Origin: Acidicapsa acidisoli
GTDB lineage: Bacteria; Acidobacteriota; Terriglobia; Terriglobales; Acidobacteriaceae
Length of the DNA: 64,000 nucleotides
Assembly: GCF_025685625.1 (NCBI RefSeq)
Contig: NZ_JAGSYI010000002.1
Location: 558,001 to 622,000, forward strand
Direction of reading: 5' to 3'
This document shows positions 4,116 through 63,082 of the stretch, in pieces (positions within the stretch are counted from its first letter, which is position 1; the number at the start of each line of letters is the position of its first letter). The translations under genes were made by a program, and so were the position numbers. The notes under the pieces were generated by a model. That model was not told the DNA's origin. It saw only the letters and a program-made list of their open reading frames with translations, and made no database searches.

Positions 4116-5213
4116 ATGATTCGCGCAGGTCTGGTGGGGTATGGATTGGCGGGCAAAGTCTTTCACGCGCCATTAATCACAGCTGTCGAAGGCCTGGAAC
4201 TGGCCGCTGTCGTCGAGCGCAAATCGCGCAACGCCGAAGCAGCCTATCCCGGCATCACCACCTATCCTTCGCTTGAGGACATGCTCGGCGACCCCACCCT
4301 CGAACTCATCGTCGTCGCCACCCCCGACAATTTCCACGTCGCCCACGCCAAGGAAGCTCTTCAAGCCGGCCGCCACGTCATCGTCGACAAGCCCGTCGCC
4401 GGAACCGCACGAGAGATCGCAGACCTGATGGCCAGGGCTGTGGAAATCGACCGGCATCTCATTCCCTTTCATAACCGTCGATGGGACAGTGACTTTCGGA
4501 CACTTCAGAAACTATTACTTGAAGAGAAACTGGGCCGTGTTGTCTACCTTGAGTCAACCTTCGACCGCTGGCGTCCGCACCCTCGCCTCACAAAATGGCA
4601 AGAAGACGGCAGTACCCCGGGCGGCGTTCTCACCAACCTCGGCACCCACCTCGTCGACCAGGCTCTCGTCCTATTCGGCCCACCCGAGGCCATCAGCGCC
4701 GACATCACCAGCGAACGCGACGGCGCAGCCGCTATCGACTCCTTCACCTTGCGCCTACACTATCCGCGCCAAACCGTAAACCTCGCCAGCAATTACTTAG
4801 CAGCTCTGCCGCGCCCCCGCTATACCGTCCGAGGCACTCAGGGAAATTTTGTAAAGTGGGGCCTCGACCCTCAGGAAGAGCGCTTAAAGGAAACCGGGCG
4901 CGTCGTTGAACCCAACTGGGGACTCGAACCTCCCGCCTCCTGGGGAACCCTGGCCATGGAGCCGAAGGGCGAGCCGGTAGGCGACACAGGCGGCAGCATG
5001 GTCACTCATCCCGCAAAACCCGTTCCCGGCGACTATCGCCTCTACTACGCAGGCGTTCGAGACGCCATCCTCGGCAAATCCCAGCCGCCCATCCAGGCAG
5101 CCGACGCCTGGCGCGTAGCCCAGCTTCTCGAATGGGCCATCGAAAGCAACACCCAGCGCAAAGAAATCCCGTGCAACTGGAATTTGGAGCCTTCCCTCAA
5201 CTGGCTACCCTAA
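4116..5213 (+). CDS. Gfo/Idh/MocA family NAD(P)-dependent oxidoreductase
   Basis: The 365-aa product has an N-terminal Rossmann fold (MIRAGLVGYGLAGKVFHAPL, residues 1-20) and the family's EKP-like motif as VDKPVAGTA near residue 88, where Lys binds the nicotinamide. The C-terminal alpha/beta domain contains LTNLGTHLVDQAL, the family's G-x-H-x-x-D substrate-site motif. It most resembles the YdgJ/YvaA-type subgroup acting on sugars or inositols. The start at 4116 is chosen because the dinucleotide fold begins at once and GAGGGG lies about 10 bases upstream; an in-frame extension from 3972 adds about 48 residues with no family similarity. The stop codon overlaps the stop of the convergent lgt-like gene by 4 bp. 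Confidence 0.88.
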   Translation: MIRAGLVGYGLAGKVFHAPLITAVEGLELAAVVERKSRNAEAAYPGITTYPSLEDMLGDPTLELIVVATPDNFHVAHAKEALQAGRHVIVDKPVAGTAREIADLMARAVEIDRHLIPFHNRRWDSDFRTLQKLLLEEKLGRVVYLESTFDRWRPHPRLTKWQEDGSTPGGVLTNLGTHLVDQALVLFGPPEAISADITSERDGAAAIDSFTLRLHYPRQTVNLASNYLAALPRPRYTVRGTQGNFVKWGLDPQEERLKETGRVVEPNWGLEPPASWGTLAMEPKGEPVGDTGGSMVTHPAKPVPGDYRLYYAGVRDAILGKSQPPIQAADAWRVAQLLEWAIESNTQRKEIPCNWNLEPSLNWLP

Positions 5214-6055
5214 GCAGCCTTCACCAGCTCCGCCGGATCTTCCTGATCTGGCTTCCGCACCGTCGCAATCCAGATCAGGATCAACCCCGCCAATACCGAC
5301 CCGAGACTCGCCAGCTGCGCATTCGATAAACCCCAAAGAATCTTCGGATTGCGCCGGATAAATTCAACCAGAAAGCGAGCGATGCCGGTCAACAGCAGAT
5401 ACTCGCCAACAATCTCGCCCGTACCCAGCTTCTTTCCCCCGCGCTTCCAAAGCCACCACCCAATCGCAAGGCCCACAATCAGCTCATAGATCGGCGTCGG
5501 ATGCACCCGCACCCCCGGCGGCGTCGGATCAATCCCATTCGGAAACCCCATCGCCCATGGAAGATTGCTCGGAATCCCATAATCCCCGTCGCCGGAGGTA
5601 AAACACCCGATCCGCCCCATCGCATAACCAACCGCAGCGGCTGGCGAAGCCAGATCCAGCGTCCGCAAGCCGCTCAATCCATTCATCTTGCCTTGCACAA
5701 TCAGCGCAATAATCCCGGCGACGAGTCCGCCAAACCAGGCAAATCCCCCCGTCGACCAAAGCACCGACCAGCCGTCCATCCGAAACTCCTGCGGTGAATC
5801 CACCACATGCCAAAGCTTCGCGCCGATAATTCCAGCCACCACCGTCAGCGCCACAATCCCCAGCGCATCCGCCAACTGCCCCTGAGAATCGACAACGTGC
5901 GCTCTCTTAAAGCTCCAATGCATCACGATCGCACCGCAGACTGTGGCCACCCAAAGCATCAAGCCAAAAGTAGGAATCTCCCACGGCCCGACTGGGATTA
6001 GCCTTCCCCCAAGGTTCAAAACGAAATGAATTCCAATGTGGATATAAGGCAACAT
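5210..6055 (-). CDS. Prolipoprotein diacylglyceryl transferase-like protein with non-canonical active site
   Basis: The 281-aa polytopic protein has the Lgt fold layout: a GLMLW first-helix motif, GGFAWFGGL in the middle, GRIGCF, a PTPIYE segment and RFLVEFIRR near the C terminus. In Lgt enzymes these read Y-G-L-M, F-H-G-G, G-R-x-G-N-F-x-N-x-E, P-S-Q-L-Y-E and R-x-x-x-E. Here the first Tyr is Phe, the His before Gly-Gly is Phe, both Asn of the signature are Cys and Ser, and Glu is Asp; the two key Arg residues and the late Glu remain. It may be a divergent Lgt or a paralogue with a different acceptor. The start at 6055 is chosen to match family length; a longer frame would run through the heptamer repeats. 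Confidence 0.75.
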   Translation of the reverse strand: MLPYIHIGIHFVLNLGGRLIPVGPWEIPTFGLMLWVATVCGAIVMHWSFKRAHVVDSQGQLADALGIVALTVVAGIIGAKLWHVVDSPQEFRMDGWSVLWSTGGFAWFGGLVAGIIALIVQGKMNGLSGLRTLDLASPAAAVGYAMGRIGCFTSGDGDYGIPSNLPWAMGFPNGIDPTPPGVRVHPTPIYELIVGLAIGWWLWKRGGKKLGTGEIVGEYLLLTGIARFLVEFIRRNPKILWGLSNAQLASLGSVLAGLILIWIATVRKPDQEDPAELVKAA

Positions 6056-6090
6056 AGATTCCAGAATACAGCGACGAGGGACAGAAACCA

Positions 6091-6182
6091 GGGAACAGGG
6101 ATCAGCGAATAGGGAATAGAAACACGAGTGCACGCCGCCTTCCCAGCTATTCCCTGATCCCTGATCCCTATTCCCTATTCCC
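6091..6182. repeat. Inverted arrays of 7-bp repeats between lgt-like gene and hpt
   Basis: Four heptamers at 6091-6118 (GGGAACA, GGGATCA, GCGAATA, GGGAATA) face five at 6148-6182 on the opposite orientation (TATTCCC, TGATCCC, TGATCCC, TATTCCC, TATTCCC). The 29-base centre is unrelated. The arms can pair over about 28 bp with a few mismatches. The array sits between the divergent starts of the Lgt-like gene and hpt. Confidence 0.8.
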
Positions 6183-6207
6183 GGCCTCCCAAGCGATACT
6201 GGAACAC

Positions 6208-6750
6208 ATGGCGACCTCTACCTACCAGGGCCTTGAAGTCCTAATCAGCCGCGAGCAGATCGCGGAGCGCGTGCGTCAGATGGGTGAACAGATCACCCGC
6301 GATCTGGCCGGAGAAAAACTGGTCATGATCGGCGTGCTCAAAGGAGCAGCCCCGTTTCTGGCCGATCTCGCACGCTGCGTCTCAGCCGACGCAACCTTCG
6401 ACTTCGTAGCTGTCTCCAGTTACGGCAAAAGCAATCGCACCTCAGGCGCGGTCAAGCTCATCAAAGACCTGGACGAGCCGATCGAAGGCAAGAACGTTCT
6501 AGTAGTGGAGGACATTCTCGACACCGGGCTGACTCTAACCTTTCTGCGCAAGGTTTTCCTGCAGCACCATCCGAAAACTTTACGCATCGCAGCCCTGCTC
6601 GACAAACCATCCAGACGCATCGAGCAGATCGAAGCCGATTACGTCGGATTTTCCATCCCCAACCTCTTCGTCATCGGGTACGGAATGGACTTCGCGGAGC
6701 GCTATCGCAATCTACCCGACATTTGCCTCATGCCCACCGAAAGTCAGTAG
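6208..6750 (+). CDS. hpt: Hypoxanthine phosphoribosyltransferase
   Basis: The 180-aa protein converts hypoxanthine or guanine and PRPP to IMP or GMP in purine salvage in the cytoplasm. The PRPP-binding loop VVEDILDTGLTL lies near residues 99-110, and the pyrophosphate-site segment GVLKGAAPFLADL near 42-54. The flexible-loop Ser-Tyr pair is present as VSSYGKSN, followed by VKLIKDLD. A late IPNLFVIGYGMDFAERYRNL completes the family pattern, and the size is normal for bacterial Hpt. The ATG at 6208 follows the heptamer-repeat array closely, with only 25 bp between, so the promoter must overlap or lie upstream of the repeats. The deoC gene follows after 97 bp, placing two nucleotide/deoxynucleoside salvage genes together. 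Confidence 0.95.
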   Translation: MATSTYQGLEVLISREQIAERVRQMGEQITRDLAGEKLVMIGVLKGAAPFLADLARCVSADATFDFVAVSSYGKSNRTSGAVKLIKDLDEPIEGKNVLVVEDILDTGLTLTFLRKVFLQHHPKTLRIAALLDKPSRRIEQIEADYVGFSIPNLFVIGYGMDFAERYRNLPDICLMPTESQ

Positions 6751-14863: not shown

Positions 14864-17800
14864 ATGAATCGATTGGTAAGGATTGCCTGGTTCTTGCTTG
14901 CGGCTGCTGTGTTTTCTACGGCTTCTCTGGCTTCTGTATCTGTTTCACTTGCTCCCGCAACTGTACACGTACCGCTCGGCGGTCAAACTCAATTCACCGC
15001 GACCGTTGGCGGGACTACCAATAGTGTCGTGATCTGGAGTTTGAACGGCGTAAATTGCAGCGGAAACACATGTGGCCAGATATCCAGTGGTGGTTTGTAT
15101 CTAGCTCCGGCCACTGCTCCATCGTCGAACGTTATCACGGTCACCGCAACATCGCTGGCTGATCTCTCTGCATCCGCCAGCGCATCCGTTATTTTGGGCG
15201 CAACTTCGGACATTACTGTCTCCGTGTCACCGGCACAGGCAACAATCGTTGTGGGCCAGAAGCAGCGCTTCATTGCCATGGTGAACGGAACAACCATCAC
15301 CACTGTTGCCTGGCAGTTAACCGGCGCGGGTTGCAGCGGATCGGCATGCGGCACCCTCACGACTGATGGTCTCTATACCGCACCCTCAGGAGTACCAGCT
15401 CCGCCGCAGGTTACGATCACGGCACTATCTGTGGCTGATCCTGCAAAGTCCGGTTCCGCGACGGTTACGATTGCCCCGCCCGTCGCCGTGAGTGTTTCTC
15501 CTGCGACGGTTCAAGTCACAACTGGAACTCAAAGGCAATTCACGGCAACCGTCACCGGCACATCGAACACCGCTGTATCGTGGAGCCTTGCCGGCAGCGG
15601 CTGCACTGGGGCGGCCTGTGGGAGTATTTCCAGCACTGGACTTTACACTGCGCCAGCGTCCGTGCCCTCGCCTCCTCAGGTATCGGTAACCGCAACATCA
15701 GTGGCTGATCCAACCAAGTCGTCCACAGCGACGGCGACAATCATTCCACCCGTCGTAGTCACGGTTTCGCCATCGACCGCGCAAGTGATCGCCGGAGCCC
15801 AGCAGCAGTTCACGAAAATTGTCACCGGTACATCCAACACCGCTGTATCCTGGAGCCTTGCAGGCAGCGGATGCGCCGGGGCAGCCTGCGGGAGTATTTC
15901 CAGCACTGGACTCTATACTGCGCCATCGTCCGTGCCCTCGCCTCCTCAAGTATCGGTAACCGCAACCTCGGTGGCTGATCCAACCAAGTCGGCCACTGCT
16001 TTGGTGACGATCATCCCGCCTGTCGTAGTCACGGTTTCACCATCGACTGCGCAAGTGGTCGTAGGAGCCCAGCAGCAGTTCACGAGAATTGTCACCGGTA
16101 CATCGAACACCGCTGTATCCTGGAGCCTCGCCGGCAACGGCTGCACCGGGGCGGCCTGCGGGAGTATCTCAAGCACTGGACTTTACACTGCGCCAACGTC
16201 CGTGCCCACGCCTCCGCAGATATCGGTAACCGCAACCTCGGTGGCTGATCCAACCAAGTCGGCCACTGCTTTGGTGACGATCATCCCGCCTGTCGCAGTC
16301 ACGGTTTCACCATCGACCGCGCAAGTGCTCACTGGAGCCCATCAACAGTTCACGGCAACTATCACCGGCTCATCCAACACCGCCGTATCGTGGAGCCTCG
16401 CCGGCAGCGGCTGCACAGGGGCAACCTGCGGGAGTATTTCAAGCACTGGACTTTACACTGCTCCAGCGTCGGTACCCACGCCACCACAGATATCTGTAAC
16501 CGCAACCTCGGTGGCTGATCCAACCAAGTCGGCCACTGCTTCGGTGACGATCATCCCGCCTGTCGCAGTCACGGTTTCACCATCGACCGCGCAAGTGCTC
16601 ACTGGAGGTCATCAGCAGTTCACGGCAACTGTCACCGGCTCGTCCAACACCGCCGTATCGTGGAGCCTTGTCGGCAGCGGCTGCACCGGGGCAACCTGTG
16701 GGAGTATCTCAAGCACTGGACTTTACACTGCGCCAGCCAGCGCTCCTGCTCCGAATCAGGTTACAGTCACCGCAACTTCTGTAGCCGACGGCACCAAATC
16801 TGCCCACGCTACAGTGACAATTATTGGACCGGTGTCGGTCACGATTGCCCCAGCCACCGCACAAGTTGTCATTGGAAGCAGTCAGCAATTTTCCGCCACG
16901 GTGAACGGCATATCGAATACCAACGTCTCGTGGAGCGTAGCCGGCGCCGGTTGCAGTGGAACAGCCTGCGGCACCATTTCCCCTACCGGCCTTTACTTTG
17001 CGCCCGCTGCTGTTCCAAATCCAGCGCAGGTATTTGTCACAGCAACCTCATTGGCCGACGCAACCAAATCGAGTACAGCCACGGTAACAATCACTCCGCC
17101 GATTGCGGTGACGCTCTCACCAACAACGGCGACGTTGACGGTGGGCGGACAACAGCAGTTCAAGGCTGTGGTCACTGGATCGACAAATACCGCTATAACG
17201 TGGAGCGTCAGCGGCAGCGGCTGCGTCGGAGCAGCCTGCGGGATGATCTCGTCAACCGGGCTCTACACTGCACCGGCATCTGTTCCGAGTTCCGCGGTGA
17301 TTGTCAAAGCGGTGTCTGTTGCCAATCCAAGCAGCTTCCGAACCGCCACGGTGACCATTGTCCCGCCAATTGTTGTCAGCGTCTCACCCGCTACAGCGGA
17401 GCTTGTTGCTGGCGCCGATGAGCAGTTCACGGCAACTGTCTCTGGAACGACAAATCGATCCGTCACCTGGAGCGTCACGGGCAAGGGTTGCTCTGGACTG
17501 GCATGTGGCACAATCACGTCCACTGGTTTCTATGGCGCTCCGGGGATCGTTCCTAACCCGGATCAAGTAACTGTGACAGCGACTTCAACCGCCGACCCAA
17601 GCAAGTCGGATAGCGCGACAGTGACTATTCTTCCACCCGTTGCCGTAACGATTTCGCCGTCCAGCACTCAGGTAGTCGCCGGCGGACGCCAGCAGTTCAT
17701 TAGGATCGTGACCGGAACGACGAATACTTTGGTGCACTGGAGCGTAGAGGGTTCGGGTTGCAGTGGAAGCGCCTGTGGAACGATCAGTTCGAGCGGCCTC

Positions 17801-29863: not shown

Positions 29864-32278
29864 ATGATCGATGCCAAGACTCAAATTCTCCATGCCAACT
29901 GCAAGCAGCAACTCGCAGCGGTTACCCTGTTTGGACTAATGCTGTCCGGATGCGGAGGGCCGAAAGCGATACTGAGCACTTCTCCTCAAATTGAGCAGTT
30001 GAAGGTTACTCCCACGGCTTCGAGCATTGCGCTCGGGCAGACGGCGAATTTCGCCGCAACAGCGATCTTGACAGATGGCTCTTCCAAGGACGAGACCAAT
30101 TCAGTGACGTGGACTAGCAGCAATGGCGGCGTTGCTAGTATCGATGCAACCGGTCATGCCACATCGGTGTCCCCGGGGAATGCGACGATTGTCGCGACGC
30201 TCCATGGGGTGACAAGCGCTGCATCACTCACAGTTTCCAAAGCCGCAATGGTAAACATCGCAGTCACTCCGTCCTCTTCGTCGCTCGCGTCCGGGACCTC
30301 GATCCAACTGAAGGCGACCGGCACCTTCACCGATCTCAGTACACAAGACGTCACCAACGCTGTCACTTGGAAAACATCTGACCCAGGTATCGCGGCTGTA
30401 AGCTCCGCCGGTCTCGCTGCTTCCATATCTATGGGCAAAGTGTCGATTACTGCATCTGCCGGGTCTGTGAGCGGGTCCTCCCAGCTTACTGTGACGGCGG
30501 CAACGCTTGTCGCCATTTCGCTGAACCCGAGCGGGATCACCGTTCCTGCCGGGATCACAGCTCAATTCACGGCGCAAGGCACCTACTCAGACGGTAGCGT
30601 GCGCGACCTGACGAGCGCCGTCTCATGGAGCAGTTCTCCGCAGGGCATAGCAAGTATCAATTCCTCAGGATCCGCGACCGGTGTAAAGGTGGGAACAGCC
30701 GCGATCGCCGCGCAGTTGGGAGGTGTGAGCGGCACGAGTACTTTGACCGTTTCCGCCGCGCAGCTGAAGTCGATCTCAATCAGCTCTGGGAGTTTCACGA
30801 TACCGCTTGGCAACGTCGAGCAAATGACCGCAACGGGCACCTACACGGATGGCAGCACCCACGACCTGACAAACTCCGTCTCATGGTCCAGCGCTTCCGC
30901 AGCAATAGTCAGTGTCAATTCCTCAGGATCCGTGACAGGCCTGAAGCTGGGAACAGCAGCGATCGACGCGCGATTGGGAGGCATGACCGGCACGAGTACT
31001 TTGACCGTTTCCGCAGCACAGCTGAAATCGATCTCAATCAGCTCGGGAAGCCTCACAATACCGCTTGGCAACGTCGAGCAAATGACCGCAACGGGCACCT
31101 ACACGGATGGCAGCACCCACGACCTGACAAACTCCGTCTCATGGTCCAGCGCTTCCGCAGCAATAGTCAGTGTCAATTCCTCAGGATCCGTGACAGGCCT
31201 GAAGCTGGGAACAGCAGCGATCGACGCGCGATTGGGAGGCATGACCGGCACGAGTACTTTGACCGTTTCCGCAGCACAGCTGAAATCGATCTCAATCAGC
31301 TCGGGAAGCCTCACAATACCGCTCGGCGCCGTCGAGCAAATGACCGCGACGGGCACCTATACAGATGGCAGCACCCGCGACCTGACAAACTCCGTCTCAT
31401 GGTCCAGCGCCTCCGCAGCAATAGTCAGCATCGGCAGCGGCGGCTCCGCCAAAGCCAGCGCACTCGGCAAAACCGACGTTTCCGCAATGAGTTCCAAGAT
31501 CAGAGGTGACGCAACGGTGACCGTCTCCCCTGCGGCTCTTTCCTCAATCGCTGTTTCGCCTTCAAATCCAGCCGTGCCTTTGGGACGGGGTGTTCAACTC
31601 GCTGCCATCGGATCATTTACGGATGGCAGCACGCAAGATGTTACAGGTTCCGTGACGTGGGCAGTGAACGACGATTCCATTGTGAGCGTGAAAAGCACCG
31701 GATACGCGACCGCTATTCACGTGGGATCAACCGGTGCGGAGGCGTCGATGAACGGCATTCAGGGCACCGTAACCATTCTTGTCGAACCCCTTGCGGCAGT
31801 CGGCTATTTCGCTACCAGGCCGAACGGGATCGATACCGCACTGCGTGTGACAAATCCCGGTTCCGATGAACCGAATCTGTGCGTAATGGTCTATGTCTTC
31901 GATCAAGATCAGCAGATGTCCGAGTGTTGCGGCTGTCGGATCTCTGGCGATGGCCTTCGCACTTTCTCCTTGAACAAAGACCTCATCGGCAATCCCCTGA
32001 CTGGCCGTGTTTCAACATCGGGTTCGATCCTTCTGGCAACCGGCGACTATGTCAGTAATCCGTCCTGCAACGCTTCTTCGATCAACCCTACGGGCACGGC
32101 GAGGGCTTGGAGCACACACCTTCAAGCGAACTCCGCAAACTCGAGTACTGTCTCTGAAGAACCCCTCTCCGAAACTCCGCTTAACGCAACCCTGACCCTT
32201 GCGCTGCAAGCGCAGTGTAGTTTCGTTCAGCAACTCGGTGGAGGCCAGGGGATTTGCACTTGCGGCACCGGCGACTGA
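29864..32278 (+). CDS. BIG2 Ig-like repeat lipoprotein with C-terminal eight-cysteine domain
   Basis: The 804-aa protein starts with a lipoprotein signal (LAAVTLFGLMLSGCGG, lipobox L-S-G-C), so it is anchored by lipidated Cys. Seven BIG2-type repeats of about 86 residues follow (for example GTYTDGSTHDLTNSVSW and SGSVTGLKLGTAAI). After residue about 645 a different domain begins (VGYFATRPNGIDTALRVTN) with NLC, ECCGC, NPSC, QAQC and the end GICTCGTGD, matching all eight Cys of the small secreted protein at 26 kb. It is likely an extracellular stalk that displays this domain. The start at 29864 (ATG) is preferred since the lipobox then lies at residue 30. Repeats 4 and 5 are almost identical in DNA. 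Confidence 0.85.
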   Translation: MIDAKTQILHANCKQQLAAVTLFGLMLSGCGGPKAILSTSPQIEQLKVTPTASSIALGQTANFAATAILTDGSSKDETNSVTWTSSNGGVASIDATGHATSVSPGNATIVATLHGVTSAASLTVSKAAMVNIAVTPSSSSLASGTSIQLKATGTFTDLSTQDVTNAVTWKTSDPGIAAVSSAGLAASISMGKVSITASAGSVSGSSQLTVTAATLVAISLNPSGITVPAGITAQFTAQGTYSDGSVRDLTSAVSWSSSPQGIASINSSGSATGVKVGTAAIAAQLGGVSGTSTLTVSAAQLKSISISSGSFTIPLGNVEQMTATGTYTDGSTHDLTNSVSWSSASAAIVSVNSSGSVTGLKLGTAAIDARLGGMTGTSTLTVSAAQLKSISISSGSLTIPLGNVEQMTATGTYTDGSTHDLTNSVSWSSASAAIVSVNSSGSVTGLKLGTAAIDARLGGMTGTSTLTVSAAQLKSISISSGSLTIPLGAVEQMTATGTYTDGSTRDLTNSVSWSSASAAIVSIGSGGSAKASALGKTDVSAMSSKIRGDATVTVSPAALSSIAVSPSNPAVPLGRGVQLAAIGSFTDGSTQDVTGSVTWAVNDDSIVSVKSTGYATAIHVGSTGAEASMNGIQGTVTILVEPLAAVGYFATRPNGIDTALRVTNPGSDEPNLCVMVYVFDQDQQMSECCGCRISGDGLRTFSLNKDLIGNPLTGRVSTSGSILLATGDYVSNPSCNASSINPTGTARAWSTHLQANSANSSTVSEEPLSETPLNATLTLALQAQCSFVQQLGGGQGICTCGTGD
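30583..31356 (+). repeat. Three 258-bp tandem repeats in the BIG2 lipoprotein gene
   Basis: Units start at 30583, 30841 and 31099, exactly 258 bp apart (86 codons). Units two and three are almost identical, and the similarity continues into 31357. This indicates very recent duplication or conversion and possible copy-number change. Confidence 0.9.
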
Positions 32279-62616: not shown

Positions 62617-63082
62617 CCCCACGGACGTTCCCTCAAAAGAGCGCCCACATTTCGATCATCCTTGTAACTCCAGCTTGTCTCTCCACTTGGACAAGCCTCA
62701 CCCGCTGAACGGATATCTGGCTCCGGCAATGCGCAGGCGCCAGCGACCTCAACCATCAGCCCTCCCCTCAACATCTCGCCCATCCTTGCCTCGTCCCAAC
62801 GAGCCAAGGATGGGCCTTATAACTTTCGGATAACATCCACTGGTATTTTCTAAATTCTGCGGAACAACTCCCATCGCAAACTAAATCGATTGCGTTGAAA
62901 GTCGCAGCGAAGAAGCCAAATCTTCCCATTCGGATCGCATCCGAGGACGTCGCAAATCCCTTGACATCGCCACTTCCGGTCAACTAATCTCGCGGCGCTT
63001 CCATCGCGACCTCGCGGCGAACGCGAACGGCCACTCCTCGAATTCAACGCGAATATAGCCAATGTCTACGGGAGAGCTACCA
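62617..63082. other. Gene-free region before the PUD protein
   Basis: 466 bp without a gene. It contains the hairpin at 62778-62815. A poor sigma-54-like sequence at about 62719 is listed among rejected items. The PUD gene start at 63083 has GGGAG upstream. Confidence 0.45.
62778..62815. terminator. Strong 15-bp hairpin
   Basis: GCCCATCCTTG pairs with CAAGGATGGGC over 11 bp, then, after one C-C mismatch, CTCG pairs with CGAG around a TCCCAA loop. It lies 160 bp after the small membrane protein gene. It has no T-run and may be the end of that transcript or a small RNA. Confidence 0.55.

Follow-up and report, generated by a model that had tools for sequence, protein, structure and literature searches.

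The window, that is, the whole stretch of 64,000 nucleotides analysed here (C2:558001-622000 of the 7.11-Mb source genome, G000), contains the divergent genes lgt and hpt, and in the spacer between them two arrays of 7-bp repeats face each other (Table 1). From the lgt ATG (complement of 6053-6055) to the hpt ATG at 6208 the distance is 152 bp, in agreement with the roughly 150 bp between divergent starts given in a preliminary description of this DNA. The same description counted nine heptamers in two opposing arrays around a 29-base centre, and both the count and the coordinates hold, with four and five units on the two sides. It also took unit and phase to be exact; the phase is indeed exactly 7 nt, but the unit is not, as the G tract is broken (GCG) in one of the nine units and the variable bases differ among them. 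The left array is readable in a YAG register from 6082 (CAGAAACCAG...) to 6119. With at most one mismatch allowed, seven two-unit matches occur in the window against 0.19 expected, a number that was reached in none of 100 shuffles. The long hairpin that had been considered possible finds support in an inverted repeat (6090-6119 / 6147-6176) with 87% complementarity, and positions 6076-6190 fold at -52.3 kcal/mol as RNA (z -6.1) and with a z of -3.4 as DNA. The G strand of the left array has its 5' end 35 bp from lgt, as determined by hand, and that of the right array 25 bp from hpt according to home-made gene calls.

Table 1. Genes, promoter elements and heptad arrays of the lgt-hpt region (positions of the window)
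Feature	Position	Strand	Details
lgt, prolipoprotein diacylglyceryl transferase	5210-6055	-	PF01790, E 1.8e-44
lgt -10-like element TATTCT	6063-6068	-	7 nt 5' of lgt ATG
Decayed outer heptads, left array	6077-6090	+	AGGGACA GAAACCA; in-phase match C2:564082
Left heptad array	6091-6118	+	4 units: GGGAACA GGGATCA GCGAATA GGGAATA
Centre between arrays	6119-6147		29 bases, unique sequence
Right heptad array	6148-6182	-	5 units: GGGAATA GGGAATA GGGATCA GGGATCA GGGAATA; GGG intact in all
TTCCCT at -35 place of hpt	6171-6176	+	18-bp spacing; within right array
hpt -10 element GATACT	6195-6200	+	7 nt 5' of ATG
hpt, phosphoribosyltransferase	6208-6750	+	PF00156, E 7.8e-26; matches in 60/61 genomes

GATACT, with a gap of 6-7 nt to the hpt ATG, is found in all 14 same-genus genomes, and AGTATA or AGAATA (+ strand) precedes lgt in seven of the eight genus genomes with plus-strand loci, as read by regular expression. 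Because the conserved -10 element of hpt lies outside the array, the hairpin should be absent from the hpt mRNA, and judged from the sequence it should sit between the two core promoters and outside both main mRNAs. The expectation of the preliminary description that the arrays affect expression of hpt goes beyond what is established: an effect on hpt, if any, could be exerted only as promoter-upstream DNA. The long hairpin might also bring to mind attenuation or intrinsic termination at hpt or lgt; we consider this most unlikely, given that with transcription from the conserved -10 elements neither mRNA would include the structure and that no terminator-like site (a GC stem followed by a T run) occurs in 6000-6260. 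A scan with the consensus promoter gave no match, and a search of 5900-6400 against Rfam returned nothing over the gathering score and only sub-threshold matches, mostly to microRNA hairpin models.

Of the 14 genomes, 10 carry TTGGNN or TTGACC at the hpt -35 place (18-bp spacing) and four carry TTCCCY (G000, G010, G011 and G002). Since G011 and G002 have TTCCCY, yet no arrays there, the outermost heptad may derive from a -35 hexamer that already existed, or may have preserved it. The lgt-hpt pair is likely to be a passenger from which hpt takes its -35 hexamer and its upstream edge. It was also observed that the longest lgt ORF begins at a GTG (6133) inside the heptad hairpin (window 6056-6133), which is not the conserved start, and that automatic annotation could misplace the start of lgt at this GTG.

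The wider comparison covered 61 genomes, the source genome and 60 relatives, with one genome per species. Fourteen genomes of the genus have a full-length hpt, and in 13 of them it lies next to lgt in divergent orientation. Comparison of this orthologous locus, a check that the preliminary description had proposed, revealed heptads in two of the 13 syntenic genomes (the source genome and G010, where they are decayed) and their absence in the other 11. In a tree of both proteins the source genome is sister to the heptad-free G004, and at least two changes are required. Compared with shuffles, the 11 heptad-free spacers have no structure (z -1.7 to 1.8), whereas those of the source genome and G010 are structured; the hairpin therefore has no conserved role at this place. 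At a second array site of the source genome (C2:440863), a GGGAWYA pair was found in none of the 12 relatives with a readable spacer, G006 (855-bp spacer unread) and G014 (no match) being left out of the comparison; the G001 ortholog of this site contains about three units of the AGTGAAC type.

Heptad-free spacers in 11 of 13 syntenic genomes would be compatible with a local accident without wider meaning, to which absence of the repeat elsewhere in the genome would have pointed according to the preliminary description. Such an absence was looked for genome-wide and the opposite was found. The strict pattern GGGAWYAGGGAWYAGGGA has 17 matches in the source genome and none when reversed, and a looser pattern gives 30 sites, of which 29 were fetched and 28 passed the array rule, the reversed control being invalid for the looser pattern because, read backwards, it still matches the same arrays. 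The strict GGGAWYA pattern occurs in nine of the 61 genomes, with 111 matches in G056, a member of the same class. Named genomes contain at least 116 stretches with four-unit GGGAWYA arrays and, among the matches listed, most rows are from Cyanobacteria, in addition to Acidobacteria, Planctomycetes, Clostridia and others. A contig under the name 'Acidobacterium sp.' matches the window at 74.5% over 1,176 bases, and an acidobacterial host is therefore most likely. With this recurrence across the genome and the class, a local accident is refuted by the genome-wide counts and retains virtually no credit.

The arrays have a characteristic size and placement. Four units is the modal length, in 15 of 28 arrays of the source genome and 20 of 39 arrays of G056, the search pattern itself requiring about 2.6 units. 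Of the intergenic arrays, 15 of 23 in the source genome and 19 of 31 in G056 have the 5' end of their G strand no more than 50 bp from a gene, as judged with a home-made gene caller that overlooks short genes and does not find the true start of lgt. Many arrays stand alone, with no partner array. These dispersed copies share one dialect of the heptamer and are present or absent at the same site between close relatives, as would be anticipated for a mobile inverted-repeat element, either a MITE or a REP moved by a Y1/RAYT transposase, and Y1_Tnp genes are indeed present in all nine genomes with the strict GGGAWYA pattern. However, Y1_Tnp is found in 47 of the 61 genomes anyway, and none of its four copies in the source genome adjoins a GGGAWYA array. 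The preliminary description was right in setting the arrays apart from ordinary REP elements. A MITE is further contradicted by the lack of an internal sequence common to the copies, the loops being unrelated between loci (at most two short matches), and either kind of element by how common single arrays are. We therefore regard a mobile element as improbable.

Other repeats were noticed in the course of this survey. A palindrome, CCATCCTT...AAGGATGG, at window positions 62780-62813 (G000:C2:620780-620813) represents a second, REP-like family with nine places in the source genome, two of which adjoin heptad arrays (C1:1400436 and C3:462071). In G056, a motif of the ATCCGAGCCGCGA type, another dispersed repeat, is repeatedly seen in the flanks of arrays (L120, L125, L128, L139, L141 and L142), and CGAGCCGC lies within 150 bp of 10 of the 39 arrays of that genome. 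The window also contains long tandem repeats of 270 and 258 bp, at 15521-16945 and 30604-31428, which probably encode repeated protein domains.

The preliminary description professed no knowledge of the mode of spread or the function of the repeat, and the literature is not far ahead of it, but repeats of this kind have been described before (PMC4692102; PMC4679880; PMC2700814). G-rich heptamers were reported in Xanthomonas (GGGAATC) and Nostoc (GGGGA(C/T)T) by Rehm et al. (2015; PMC4692102), and they resemble the present arrays in being tandem and intergenic, in preferring four units, in starting on the 5' side within about 50 bp of a gene and in frequently forming facing pairs (70 cases in Xcc), with no link to mobile elements in the part of that report available here. 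The unit, however, is GGGAWYA in our case, and it is one dialect among many. The lgt-hpt copy lies between divergent genes, in a kind of spacer that the G-rich heptamers of Xanthomonas and Nostoc avoid (PMC4692102). Whereas 83% of the repeats of Xcc are at the same place in Xac (PMC4692102), here the orthologous place may hold another dialect.

For the Xanthomonas and Nostoc repeats it was proposed that GGG runs separated by 4-nt loops fold as a G-quadruplex and regulate transcription of the neighbouring genes, and oligonucleotides of (GGGAATC)n do form this structure in vitro (PMC4692102). The right array of the window, with five GGG tracts and 4-nt loops, would be suited to it, as would the 33 of 39 G056 arrays with at least four consecutive intact GGG, a set that was picked with the strict GGGA pattern. 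In the source genome, on the other hand, only 8 of 28 arrays hold four consecutive intact GGG, and the tract is broken in the left array of the window. Changes per 109 units number 6, 6 and 5 at G1-G3 against 3 and 4 at A4 and A7, so the G tract is no better conserved than the adenines. Furthermore, the dialects AGCTNCT, AGTTTTC and AGCTATC have the same architecture without G tracts; non-G-rich dialects with the same layout occur even in the same genome, and the G tracts are not specially kept, unlike the G-rich heptamers of PMC4692102 as far as that source extends. We consider a G-quadruplex element quite unlikely, and the results argue that the potential to form one is a by-product of a single dialect.

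The dialects become apparent at the trnW-rpmG and rpmG-tuf spacers, which were compared in 13 genomes and in which the heptads of the relatives differ in sequence: AGCTNCT and AGAGATC in G001, AGNNNTC in G011 and G002, and AGTTTTC/AGGGGTC in G008. Common to all of them at both spacers is YAG every 7 nt. Five in-phase YAG anchors were found in 48 of the 61 genomes, with match counts that represent overlapping registers rather than loci and with reversed controls that are inflated in G008 because arrays bearing GTCAG match too. A scan that presupposes no anchor was applied to 210,375 bases picked by orthology, not by repeats, and returned 10 period-7 arrays (threshold 16/21) from about seven loci, the ten therefore not being independent; nine have YAG in every unit and the remaining one in five of six units. 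This class of bacteria thus has many dialects and one register, YAG every 7 nt, and it is the hairpin shape and the three-base anchor that persist, the rest of the repeat being swappable between species. The source genome itself possesses a second dialect, AGCTNCT, with facing pairs at C1:702719-702860 and C1:1612259-1612345 (L382 and L381), and one of its AGCTNCT pairs lies about 1 kb from a GGGAWYA pair.

A comparable register can be read in other described heptamers. The TAACTGA direct repeats of Beggiatoaceae, Cyanobacteria and Bacteroidetes (MacGregor, 2015; PMC4679880) are likewise dispersed 7-nt arrays near gene starts, and their reverse complement, TCAGTTA, places CAG every 7 nt; unlike the arrays studied here, they are presented in the accessible part of that work as having one unit sequence and as being inverted only once in the Guaymas genome. 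The heptanucleotide sites of Geobacter metallireducens (PMC2700814) are also dispersed and fall into binding-site classes that are mostly paired, like the present arrays, and class 3, MTYCTGA, is TCAGRAK on the other strand, but they are presented as predicted regulator sites. The STRR of cyanobacteria (PMC2670836) are similar in being 7-bp tandem repeats capable of forming hairpins and differ in that cyanobacteria are the hosts described. Neither dialect turnover at orthologous sites nor a YAG register across dialects was reported in the open-licence PMC literature searched.

The pairs also have a polarity. Defining a pair by three YAG anchors per side, 20-50 nt apart, and again counting overlapping registers, not loci, we obtained facing pairs in 28 of the 61 genomes, with 654 one-strand matches, whereas the reversed control gave 120. 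The latter are outward-facing pairs, found in eight genomes and chiefly in G051 and G059. The 15 genomes of the genus yield 79 facing matches, spread over 7 of them, and no outward-facing match. The same holds for GGGAWYA arrays no more than 250 bp apart, of which five pairs are facing, none outward and one in the same direction in the source genome, compared with four, none and two, respectively, in G056. The outward matches of G051 and G059 belong to CTG-anchored dialects with CTG on the 5' arm. G051 (e.g., C14:75651-75765) has long CTGAGTN/CAGCACT heptad arrays that form outward pairs in YAG terms and offers a test of the polarity rule.

Polarity bears on another explanation, that the array is a binding site for a putative protein that reads YAG (CTR on the other strand) every 7 nt, for instance a DNA-binding regulator or a cold-shock-like protein that binds single strands. 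YAG being kept while the interior is free would suit such a protein, as would the preference for four units, and the Beggiatoaceae and Geobacter heptamers were proposed as regulator or Csp sites (PMC4679880; PMC2700814). Nevertheless, a binding array would require neither two arms nor a fixed polarity, and we judge this explanation to be unlikely.

The two arms of a pair resemble each other beyond the anchor. When the interior 4-mers were compared, with the pairs of G056, G059 and G001 taken among the matches listed, the arms of one locus were alike at 3.17 of 4 positions in G056 (18 pairs) against 2.08 of 4 across loci, and at 3.46 against 2.01 of 4 in G059 (14 pairs), neither difference being reached in any of 5000 permutations. 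The five pairs of G001 gave 36 in 5000 permutations, and in the source genome the likeness was weak (five pairs; 268 in 5000), with locus L116 dropped as its left arm failed the strict rule.

At trnW-rpmG, the arms can be followed between species. G000, G001 and G011 have four heptads plus an anchor per arm, at near-equal distances to the genes, and of 31 positions 23, 23 and 26, respectively, pair between the two arms of the same genome, compared with 12-18 in crosses. Among four genomes, G008 included and G002 (one of five arm-bearing genomes) left out as a near copy of G011, anchor columns are identical in 67 of 90 comparisons for the left arm and 60 of 90 for the right, although this agreement is partly built in by aligning the arms on the inner anchor; for interior columns the agreement is at the level of chance (20 of 96 and 21 of 96, respectively). 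An exception is G008, the own arms of which pair at 15 of 31 positions compared with 26 for its left arm with the right arm of G011, and the placement of its right arm may be off. The left arm of G002 pairs at 27 positions with the right arm of G011 and at 25 with its own, the two genomes being near copies. In all 13 genomes the trnW-rpmG and rpmG-tuf spacers, whether they contain heptads or not, are more stably folded than shuffles (z -1.9 to -9.1), and the heptads therefore occupy places that ordinary hairpins hold in other genomes.

Behind the observed dispersal, register, facing polarity, match of arms within a locus, unlike loops and presence or absence among close relatives, the most likely process is one that combines 7-nt slippage with template switching from arm to arm, with the hairpin either tolerated or put to use as an RNA hairpin between genes; we give this proposal an even chance of being right. 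Neither selection for G-quadruplexes nor transposition nor an attenuator of hpt finds support. The element would consist of two tandem 7-nt arrays, anchored by YAG, that start near both gene edges of a spacer and point inward. The arrays would lengthen and shorten in 7-nt steps by replication slippage, and for heptamers slippage with a 7-nt polymerase footprint was proposed in work cited by PMC4679880. The arms would be kept alike by the DNA polymerase switching template between them (quasipalindrome correction); hairpins reportedly arise and are maintained through template switching (PMC8794818). By such switching the sequence of a locus could be replaced while both arms stay complementary. 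Between co-directional neighbours the hairpin may serve, or be tolerated, as an intergenic RNA hairpin for transcript ending or processing; at lgt-hpt it would be an addition between two core promoters.

This proposal has its limits. The 7-nt unit and YAG need more than slippage alone as an explanation; CTG and CTA are primase start triplets, and a link of these to the heptads was considered. A dialect common to many loci of one genome also requires some copying between loci, and matched arms would arise equally by insertion of whole elements in several dialects. A broader idea, which we hold with more doubt than conviction, is that heptad hairpins persist in their roughly four units per arm, YAG anchor, polarity and anchoring at gene edges, while both arm interiors are rewritten together, locus by locus, into dialects, and that the repeats of Xanthomonas, Nostoc, Geobacter and Beggiatoaceae may be single dialects of one process.

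The heptamer arrays described here belong to a known kind of repeat, and the variant that they represent brings a more general pattern to light. What goes beyond the papers found are the many dialects with one YAG register, the facing polarity in the genus and the arm-matched turnover at the orthologous trnW-rpmG spacer. For hpt itself this is a modest matter. Heptamer repeats have so far been reported piecemeal, in several phyla, and without an accepted origin or function. If slippage and template switching are at work, selection would act at most on the hairpin, and a shared register, a fixed polarity and, at one orthologous site, arms that turn over in a matched way lead to a concrete mechanism that can be tested by strain-level sequencing.
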